Of a stretch of 35,194 bases of DNA, positions 5,737 to 8,203 are shown one piece after another (the first letter of the stretch is position 1; each line of letters starts with the position of its first letter). This stretch comes from Elusimicrobia bacterium RIFOXYA2_FULL_39_19 (GTDB taxonomy: Bacteria; Elusimicrobiota; Endomicrobiia; CG1-02-37-114; XYA2-FULL-39-19). A program made the position numbers and the translations under genes. The notes beneath the pieces were generated by a model. The model worked only from the letters and a program-made list of their open reading frames with translations, searched no databases and was not told where the DNA came from. Location of the stretch: positions 1 through 35,194 of the forward strand of contig MGVC01000053.1 of the NCBI GenBank assembly GCA_001800285.1, read 5' to 3'.

Positions 5737-6969
5737 ATGAACAAAACTATACTGCATATTGATATGAATGCGTATTTTGCGTCAGTGGAACAGGCGTGTA
5801 ACCCTGCTTTGCGCGGAAAGCCTATTGCTGTCTGCGGTGAAATAGCCAAAGGCAGTAAATACCCCAGGACCATTATCACCACTTCTTCCTACGAGGCGCG
5901 CGCCCTGGGAGTGAAAGGCATTATGAGCATTCCCGAGGCAAAGGCAGTATGCCCCGGGCTTATCCTTGTTGCCGGGAACATGGATAAATATATTGATGTG
6001 TCGCTTAAAATACAGAAAATTCTGCTTTCCTTTACAGATACTGTAGAAGTATTTTCCATTGACGAATGTTTTATGGATGTAACGGATATTTTGAAATTTC
6101 ACGGTGATGCAAAAACCATTGCCAAAGAAATTAAAACGCGCATAAAAAGTGAGCTGGGGTTAATGTGTTCTGTGGGCATAGCGCCAAACAAACTGCTGGC
6201 GAAGCTTGGCAGTGATATGAAAAAACCTGACGGCCTTACAGAAATAAAAGAAGAGGATATTCCGTCCGTATTGGAAAATCTGCCCATAGAGGATTTGTGC
6301 GGGATAGGTTCTCATTTACAGGAAAAACTTAACCGGCTTGGCATAAAAACCGCCAAAGGGCTGGGTGATGCTTCTATAAATTTGTTAACAAACCGGTTCG
6401 GGTTTATAGGTTATGCGTTAAAACAGATGGGGCAGGGTATAGACCACAGCCCGGTAAAACTTTACAATGCGCATGACGCGGTAAAATCCGTAGGCCATTC
6501 GCACACACTTACGCAGGATACCTGGGATTTGGATGTGGTGAAAGCTTATATGCTTATGCTTTGTGAAAAAGTGGGCACGCGGTTACGGCAATATAAAATG
6601 GCAGGGAAAACGGTGTCTCTGGTGGTCAGGTATGCTGATTTTGAAACTTACGGCCGGCAGAAAAGCCTGGGTGAATACATTAAAACCGGAAATGAAATTT
6701 ATAATGCCGCATTTTCTCTCTGGAAAGAAAAATTTAAGTTTGATAAAGCGGTGCGGCTGCTGGGTGTAAGTATTTCAAACCTTATGCCGGATGACGGCCA
6801 GCAATACTTAATGGAAAACATGCGTAAACAGCTGGTTATAACTAAAACGGTAGATGAAATAAATACAAAGTATGGGGAGTTTACGGTAAAGCCGTCTGCG
6901 GTAATTACTGCAGAAAAGTTTGGTATACTAAACCGGTGCGGGATAATGAGCAAAAGACTTATAAAGTGA
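5737..6969 (+). CDS. dinB: DNA polymerase IV (Y-family translesion polymerase)
   Basis: Error-prone polymerase that bypasses lesions. Metal ligands are Asp9 (ILHIDMNAYF) and Asp109-Glu110 (VFSIDECFMD); Phe14 is the expected steric gate against ribonucleotides. The thumb motif (IEDLCGIGSHLQEKLNRLGI, ~185-205) and a little-finger domain follow. At 410 residues it is slightly longer than E. coli DinB (351). No strong Shine-Dalgarno precedes ATG. The stop codon lies inside a 34-bp repeat (6963-6996) present again 47 bases later, so the last two codons are repeat-derived. No canonical beta-clamp-binding peptide is obvious at the C-terminus (RCGIMSKRLIK). Confidence 0.93.
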   Translation: MNKTILHIDMNAYFASVEQACNPALRGKPIAVCGEIAKGSKYPRTIITTSSYEARALGVKGIMSIPEAKAVCPGLILVAGNMDKYIDVSLKIQKILLSFTDTVEVFSIDECFMDVTDILKFHGDAKTIAKEIKTRIKSELGLMCSVGIAPNKLLAKLGSDMKKPDGLTEIKEEDIPSVLENLPIEDLCGIGSHLQEKLNRLGIKTAKGLGDASINLLTNRFGFIGYALKQMGQGIDHSPVKLYNAHDAVKSVGHSHTLTQDTWDLDVVKAYMLMLCEKVGTRLRQYKMAGKTVSLVVRYADFETYGRQKSLGEYIKTGNEIYNAAFSLWKEKFKFDKAVRLLGVSISNLMPDDGQQYLMENMRKQLVITKTVDEINTKYGEFTVKPSAVITAEKFGILNRCGIMSKRLIK

Positions 6970-7043
6970 AAACGGTATCCTGCACACAAGAATGTTTATT
7001 ATGCAGGGTAAAGTGAAAACGGTATCCTGCACACAAGAATGTT
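6963..7043. repeat. 34-bp direct repeats overlapping the dinB stop codon
   Basis: The 34 bases from AAAGTGAAAACGG to AAGAATGTT occur at 6963-6996 and, identically, at 7010-7043. TGCAGG (7002-7007) and CCTGCA (7026-7031) can form a stem across the second copy. With the next entry this fills most of the 361-base gap between dinB and the DUF559 gene. The rest (about 7141-7220) shows nothing I recognise. Confidence 0.85.
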
Positions 7044-7045
7044 AA

Positions 7046-7140
7046 AGCGAAAGCTTTATCCAGAAAAACAAATATGTCTGGAAATGAAGGATTAGCGAAA
7101 GCTTTATCCAGAAAAACAATTGTGTTAGGAAATGAAGGAG
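7046..7140. repeat. Tandem ~47-bp repeat with tail hairpin
   Basis: Two units, each starting AGCGAAAGCTTTATCCAGA and ending GGAAATGAAGGA, at 7046-7093 and 7094-7140. In the first, TCCAGA pairs with TCTGGA as a hairpin; in the second this pairing has decayed. Confidence 0.8.
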
Positions 7141-7220: not shown

Positions 7221-7729
7221 AAAGGTGAACTCCCCTAGCCCCTCTTTTACTAAAGAGGGGGATTAAGAAAAGGAAACAAGGGGTTGTTCTCCCCTCTTTT
7301 TCAAAGAGGGGAATAAGGGGAGTTAATTAAATGGATGTATTTAACAGGCAGGACACAAAGGAAAGCAGAAAATCCCTTAGAAAAAACCAAACAGACGCAG
7401 AAAAAATATTGTGGAGCAAATTAAGAAACAAACAATTAAATGGGTATAAGTTTTTCAGACAATACGGTATTGATAAATATATAGTTGATTTTTATTGTCC
7501 AAAATTAAAACTTGCTGTTGAAGTTGATGGCGGCCAGCATTACAACAAGGAAGCAATTGATTATGATAAACGGCGGTCTATATTTCTAGAATCAAAAAGT
7601 ATAAAGACAGTAAGATTTACAAATATTGATATTTTGAAAAATATTCAAGGTGTATTTGTAAAAATCATTGAAGAGATAGCATTAATTAAAGGTGAACTCC
7701 CCTAGCCCCTCTTTTACTAAAGAGGGGGA
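7221..7729 (+). mobile_element. Candidate DUF559 element bounded by 42-bp direct repeats
   Basis: Identical 42-bp sequences (AAAGGTGAACTCCCCTAGCC to AAAGAGGGGGA) lie at 7221-7262 and 7688-7729, in direct orientation around one gene. Each holds a 9-bp hairpin (CCCCTCTTT / AAAGAGGGG). A further hairpin with the same arms is at about 7293-7313, within an outer CTCCCC/GGGGAG pair. The repeats supply the gene's apparent Shine-Dalgarno and its last codons. Repeats of this kind next to DUF559 genes are something I recall from other genomes, but mobility is not demonstrated here. Confidence 0.5.
7331..7705 (+). CDS. DUF559 domain protein (Vsr-like PD-(D/E)XK endonuclease fold)
   Basis: A 124-residue protein of the DUF559 family, related to the very-short-patch-repair endonuclease fold. 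The family pattern is clear: TDAEKILWSKLRNKQLNGYKFF, then IDKYIVDFYCPKLKLAVEVDGGQH (~52-75), where Asp58, Glu69 and Asp71 are the likely metal/catalytic acids, and a C-terminal VRFTNIDIL. AAGGGGAG 11 bases before ATG is part of the flanking repeat. The final residues KGELP and the TAG stop lie in the downstream 42-bp repeat, so the C-terminus is shared with the element. The substrate of this family is not established; nicking of its own hairpin ends is speculation. Confidence 0.85.
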   Translation: MDVFNRQDTKESRKSLRKNQTDAEKILWSKLRNKQLNGYKFFRQYGIDKYIVDFYCPKLKLAVEVDGGQHYNKEAIDYDKRRSIFLESKSIKTVRFTNIDILKNIQGVFVKIIEEIALIKGELP

Positions 7730-7752: not shown

Positions 7753-8203
7753 ATGAACAAAGAAATTGTAGCAGACAAGAGTTTACTGGCAAAGTGCGGG
7801 CTTTATTGCGGAAGTTGCTGGCAGTAACCGCATTCGTGCCTGCAAGCAGCGTCCTTGGAACAAATGGTAAGAGGGAAAACAAGGACTGCTGGTATCCGAT
7901 AGGAAGGATAGCAGGCGAGCGTATTTGAAACAGAAATGCAAAGGTTGTACGGAAAATGTTAAAGCCACCTGGTGTGCGGTGCGCACGTGTTGCCTGGAAA
8001 ACAAGTACGTTACCTGTGCGGACTGTACAACATTCAGTAATGCCGCGGACTGTAAAAAACTGAATAATTTTATTTCTAAAACGATAAGCTTGTTTACAGG
8101 TTCAGACAGGCCTGCCAGCATTAAGTTAATCAAAGAAAAAGGGTGTGATTATTACTGCAAGGAAATGGCAGATAAGAAAACCCATTGCGTGAAGAAAAGT
8201 TGA
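7753..8203 (+). pseudogene. DUF3795 protein gene split by a ~97-bp insertion
   Basis: DUF3795 proteins are small Cys-rich proteins, probably metal-binding. The first frame (ATG 7753, after GGAG) reads MNKEIVADKSLLAKCGLYCGSC and then stops at 7825. A second frame, from about 7916, reads RAYLKQKCKGCTENVKATWC and continues to KKS at 8203. In the family these two segments are adjacent (CG.CRAYLK..C.GC), so the coding sequence is interrupted after the CGSC motif and shifted in frame by about +1. The second frame has a TTG at 7925 that could start translation but would lack the first Cys motif. Read as an interrupted gene unless the insert is removed from the RNA or bypassed. Confidence 0.8.
7819..7915 (+). 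other. ~97-bp foldable insertion inside the DUF3795 gene
   Basis: Boundaries are set by where DUF3795 similarity stops and resumes, so they may be off by a few bases. Within it GCCTGC (7838-7843) pairs with GCAGGC (7911-7916), enclosing two hairpins: AGCAG+TCCTTG (7845-7857, CG bulge) with CAAGGA+CTGCT (7880-7890), and TATCC (7893-7897) with GGATA (7906-7910). That gives a three-way-junction fold. No obvious target-site duplication was seen. Confidence 0.55.

Follow-up and report, generated by a model that had tools for sequence, protein, structure and literature searches.

In the window analysed here, that is, the whole 35,194-nucleotide stretch of contig MGVC01000053.1 from Elusimicrobia bacterium RIFOXYA2_FULL_39_19, an open reading frame of 124 aa for a putative nuclease of the DUF559 family (PF04480; 7331..7705, plus strand) is accompanied by three repeat units, each composed of a hairpin and an adjoining box. 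R1 (7221..7262, plus strand) is an extra unit upstream, with the box AACTCCCCTAG and a hairpin at 7239-7260; R2 (7288..7330, minus strand) forms the left end, with its hairpin at 7291-7311 outside and a GGGGAGTTAATTAA box inside; and R3 (7682..7729, plus strand) forms the right end, with TTAATTAAAGGTGAACTCCCCTAG and a hairpin at 7706-7727. Direct comparison bore out the preliminary description, which had reported identical 42-bp repeats at 7221-7262 and 7688-7729 (R1 and R3, which agree in 91% over 54 bp) and a third hairpin with the same arms before the ATG, namely that of R2. The exact hairpin CCCCTCTTT-loop-AAAGAGGGG occurs three times in the window, at these three positions, and its expected count in dinucleotide shuffles is none. 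It had also been claimed that the repeats provide a Shine-Dalgarno-like site as well as the last codons and the stop of the gene, and this is the case: the ribosome-binding site AAGGGGAG (7315-7322) comes from R2 and sits 8 nt 5' of the ATG at 7331, and R3 codes for the end of the reading frame (GGT GAA CTC CCC and the stop TAG, 7691-7705); the view that gene and repeat make up one unit is likewise supported. Because R2 is inverted with respect to R1 and R3, an inverted pair (R2, R3) encloses the gene, the boxes facing it and the hairpins pointing away from it, and R1 and R2 together make a gene-less inverted dimer just 5' of the gene. The genome of the window holds 3 DUF559 genes and 10 perfect copies of the window hairpin, 7 of them away from the window gene, and several copies elsewhere share a GGGGAGTT box. 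Just 3' of R3, at 7754-8203, lies a DUF3795-like gene that appears broken, with an early stop after the ATG, and whose weak DUF3795 match falls in another short frame; between the polymerase gene and R1, at 6962-7139, there are two tandem direct-repeat pairs (35 nt and 46 nt, spacing 47-48).

The window protein matches DUF559 in Pfam with an E value of 2.6e-33, and its domain matches are limited to DUF559, MTES_1575 and PvuRts1I-like. AlphaFold models the protein with confidence (mean pLDDT 93.6), and the predicted fold is not HUH; in Foldseek its best PDB match is 3HRL, a DUF559 protein from Neisseria, and next comes a homing endonuclease, I-Bth0305I, with its catalytic domain (E 9e-5, probability 1.00, TMt 0.76). 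A PD-(D/E)XK, Vsr-like fold had been assigned at first sight; Vsr was rejected as the closest relative, since 1VSR is matched weakly (E 0.33) and ranks behind both 3HRL and the EDxHD enzyme I-Bth0305I. The residues E24, D53, E64, D66, H70 and D79 are invariant or near-invariant among 66 homologs and are all present in the window protein; E24, D53, H70 and D79 are candidates for the catalytic E, D, H and D of EDxHD enzymes. DUF559 has been put in the EDxHD homing endonuclease family in a passage on inteins (PMC9403480), and another paper ties YcjD to Vsr and PD-(D/E)XK (PMC1189080). The window gene thus probably encodes an EDxHD/PD-(D/E)XK-type nuclease, its chemistry being predicted from the modelled fold. 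A role in anti-phage defence was considered and set aside, as the PADLOC matches were only partial and weak.

The flanks of DUF559 homologs, which the preliminary description had proposed to inspect, were compared at 106 DUF559 loci, of which 46 came from named genomes in various bacterial phyla; the others belonged to the phylum of the window, and its own genome was included. Under a strict definition (perfect arm of at least 8, pyrimidine-first, C-rich and at most 250 bp from the gene), about half of the loci carried a hairpin on a given side and about half did not, with 49/103 upstream and 55/102 downstream versus 13/917 (1.4%) in control windows from the same loci; a strict hairpin was missing on both sides at 33 of the 106. 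Flanks absent from most homologs had been named as a refuting outcome, and this is not what was observed. Near DUF559 genes, 129 of 131 C/G-rich hairpins were pyrimidine-first and 2 were purine-first, an arm order that we had considered as strand information and dropped, because a hairpin is its own reverse complement. The conserved layout runs from a hairpin through a purine box such as TTAGGGTGAGGG to the gene, and from there through CCCTCACCCCAA to a second hairpin. The box-plus-hairpin unit in inverted pairs recurs across phyla, and two such units in inverted orientation enclose most of the genes. Boxes point inward at both ends at 20 loci, and the reversed polarity, with boxes outward, is typical of intragenic insertions. 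Being G+C-rich and mainly intergenic, the repeats might be taken for terminators or mRNA-stabilising structures that happen to be common beside small genes, with DUF559 as a passenger; this origin seems to us very improbable in view of the family-specific sequence, the extra unpaired box, the inverted pairing around the gene, the rarity of such hairpins in the control windows, the co-divergence with the protein and the in-frame occurrence within coding sequences (both described below), and also because no Rfam family scored above its own threshold.

The hairpins vary together with the protein. Protein distance was correlated with hairpin-arm distance (Mantel r 0.36, n=85, p 5e-4), also in the cross-phylum set (r 0.37), and the correlation was the same after removal of G+C; when only pairs from different major groups were used and permuted within groups, r was 0.27 (p 2e-4), this group-wise test being the only one that corrects for kinship. 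In the genome counts, which like the locus counts are not fully corrected for kinship, 8/8 genomes of the window's phylum with at least two window-type hairpins have a strong DUF559 gene versus 44/295 overall (p 1.4e-7), and 13 of the 19 genomes with the CCCTCACCC/CCCTCTCC hairpin class, among the 295, have one as well (p 4.7e-8). A RAYT was rejected as the mover, given that none of the 5 Y1 transposase genes in the window genome is linked to such repeats: roughly 3.3 kb checked around each gene contained no such hairpins or boxes. Linkage, co-occurrence, co-divergence and this absence near the Y1 genes point to the DUF559 protein, and we infer, from sequence evidence, that it would be what moves the units.

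Comparison of relatives demonstrates, at the level of sequence, that the units are mobile, with or without the gene. Empty and filled sites, which the preliminary description had hoped to find in sister strains, are present in hsdM and hsdR. In hsdM, a DUF559 element stands in-frame after LWFIRRK in two genomes (G207 and G083), five related genomes have the gene uninterrupted (at the nucleotide level, segments are about 75-92% identical to the filled gene), and the window's own genome has a gene-less hairpin and box, in-frame, at the site of the DUF559 element in G207 and G083. The hsdR gene is empty in five genomes and holds a DUF559 element at one site in G207 and in the window's genome; in G207, an exact copy of the 65-nt right-end unit moreover stands at a second site, at a distance of 348 nt, which is empty in the five relatives. 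By parsimony, the direction of change in both genes is probably insertion. Copies of the repeat being equally common far from DUF559 genes, with no empty and filled sites, had been named as evidence against mobility; distant repeats do occur, yet so do empty and filled sites. The hsdR of the window's genome (G000:C75 end / C65 start; L001, L211) appears to be split, between its DUF559 element and the right-end box, by an insertion-sequence-like end that lies at a contig break. Azospirillum strains differ in a gene-less inverted pair, which four of them carry and three lack; one empty site retains a box-like GGTGGGGGCAACC, so that loss of the unit by deletion is possible there. No clean target-site duplication was seen in the empty/filled alignments of hsdM, hsdR and Azospirillum.

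The gene-less hairpin in hsdM, at the position where G207 and G083 hold the DUF559 element, would also be expected if another enzyme spread the hairpins and DUF559 only cut existing repeats and copied its own gene into them by break repair, thereby tracking the repeats without spreading them. Entry of the gene into a repeat could likewise yield the identical R1 and R3, and such a parasitic life would suit both the nearest functional fold, that of a homing endonuclease, and the name of EDxHD-family homing endonuclease gene given in the intein passage of PMC9403480. We nevertheless regard this explanation as unlikely, because a different spreader should leave repeat-rich genomes without DUF559, whereas all eight genomes with at least two window-type hairpins have a strong DUF559 gene; furthermore, hsdM and hsdR each have five homologs that are empty and contain no full unit, and no other linked enzyme was found, the Y1 transposases being unlinked in the window genome.

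In-frame DUF559 was also found in PriA of three Gastranaerophilales-like genomes, in HsdR of a Chlorobiota genome, in an Eco57I-type enzyme and in an N6/N4 methyltransferase, together with a fusion to HisH, and no intein domain was detected in DUF559-interrupted genes. The in-frame cases (L001, L035, L047, L052, L109, L110, L111, L113) lie mostly in restriction-modification genes, for which target preference, tolerance and co-transfer are all possible reasons. This predominance of restriction-modification subunits (HsdR, HsdM, Eco57I-type, N6/N4 methyltransferase), like the conservation of the putative catalytic residues, could mean that DUF559 has been recruited for host benefit as a useful nuclease domain in restriction-modification and other proteins, the repeats being scars or regulators. 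We find this explanation improbable, since gene-less hairpins of the same kind stand in-frame in hsdM and hsdR without a nuclease domain, stand-alone genes are the majority of DUF559, and PriA is a host as well.

Many DUF559 genes look stationary, as RAYTs do, and some, such as E. coli ycjD and the Sinorhizobium gene, look vertically fixed. In E. coli K-12, ycjD (L163) lies between sapF and fabI and is followed by CCCTCACCCC-type repeats; it was rejected as a source of a clean empty site because the lineages inspected have an efflux cassette after sapF, at the position of ycjD in K-12, which makes the site uninformative about insertion. The Sinorhizobium gene lies between a DsbA-family gene and smc, and S. 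meliloti could not serve as a clean empty site either, as it carries a degenerate remnant instead. The repeats adjoining the Sinorhizobium gene (L162 downstream flank) may resemble the rhizobial RIME1 palindromes. A different repeat, of CCCTCTCCC type, flanks the DUF559 locus of Neisseria gonorrhoeae (L161; 3HRL family) and occurs in clusters elsewhere in that genome. As to an empty site for the window's own element, a sister-genus genome (G156) has the orthologous polymerase gene with the element absent downstream; this candidate was rejected, as the intergenic DNA does not align and the junction at the window locus is therefore undefined.

We propose, with a probability of about two in three, that these loci represent a minimal REP-like mobile system, consisting of a box-plus-hairpin unit and a DUF559 nuclease that acts on its own repeats. 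The mobile unit would be a short DNA hairpin whose stem is pyrimidine-first, together with a C-rich box next to it, and the DUF559 gene would be carried between two inverted units. The nuclease may recognise the box-hairpin of its own family and cut or nick it, and the break may cause the unit, in some cases along with the gene, to be copied to a new location by either a homing-like (repair-copying) or a transposase-like route; gene-less copies would be mobilised in trans. The window locus would then be a gene-bearing copy beside a gene-less dimer. To our knowledge, no activity of a DUF559 protein on such hairpins is known. The preliminary description had suggested a minimal mobile element analogous to REP-associated tyrosine transposases but with a different nuclease, a suggestion that is supported in part, by the organisation, the recurrence in many phyla, the gene-less copies and the empty and filled sites. 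More tentatively, and at somewhat less than even odds, DUF559 could constitute a third and very widespread REP superfamily, present even in the model organism E. coli (ycjD) and able to insert in-frame into genes such as priA, whose units travel in trans, driven by an EDxHD nuclease, along a homing-like or hairpin-based route that would be new for mobile elements.

In the open-access literature, to which the search was confined, we found no link between DUF559 and repeats, and the combination of a DUF559 gene with a hairpin system has apparently not been described before; it would represent REP-like elements with a different enzyme. Short palindromic repeats rank among the commonest repeats of bacterial genomes, and several families have no known moving enzyme, so if DUF559 moves C-rich hairpin families, this would offer one testable explanation for many unexplained repeats. 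The same explanation would cover the unusual inserts rich in Pro, Gly and Ser that some annotated proteins contain, as well as a conserved gene of E. coli whose function is unknown; an unrelated nuclease would join the few enzymes that underlie REP-like elements, and genes would be invaded in-frame without splicing.

Among known systems, the Rickettsia palindromic elements (RPE) are likewise short palindromic units that occur in-frame in genes, but they are unrelated in sequence, and we know of no nuclease encoded by them. YcjD of E. coli K-12 and NGO0050 (PDB 3HRL) belong to the same DUF559 family, and in the open-access literature neither a function nor a repeat association is described for them. 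The EDxHD homing endonuclease I-Bth0305I (PDB 3R3P; PMC3943268) is the best functional match to the predicted fold of the window protein, but it is intron-associated and has extra DNA-binding regions and a target of ~60 bp, whereas the window protein consists of the 124-aa domain alone, with hairpins on either side. EDxHD homing endonucleases are encoded in a self-splicing intron or intein; here the interrupted genes showed no intein domain, and the window locus gave no Rfam intron match. The CGTC-tagged REPs, described as having no dedicated transposase (PMC3733652), are also REP-like, form dimers, occur in several phyla and are sometimes intragenic; however, they combine CGTC with an 8-9 bp stem opening with complementary A/T pairs (PMC3733652), and the window's unit, whose stem is CCCCTCTTT, shows neither feature. 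The closest parallel in organisation is with REP and RAYT (TnpA_REP), REPtrons and REPINs (PMC2817692, PMC3116915, PMC3733652, PMC8266576), which share palindromic units tagged on one side, inverted dimers and many gene-less copies, here the 7 further copies in the window's own genome and the Azospirillum pairs, as well as a nuclease gene placed between units in inverted orientation (R2/R3 and many homologs) that is often stationary and sometimes intragenic. Their enzyme is an HUH tyrosine transposase (Y1_Tnp), whereas here it is DUF559, of EDxHD/PD-(D/E)XK-like type; their tag is GTAG, whereas the units described here have a C-rich box (AACTCCCCTAG or GGGGAGTTAATT) with no adjacent GTAG, and the stems are pyrimidine-first. 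With neither an HUH transposase nor a GTAG tag, the system is thus REP-RAYT-like in its working and stands beside that family rather than within it.
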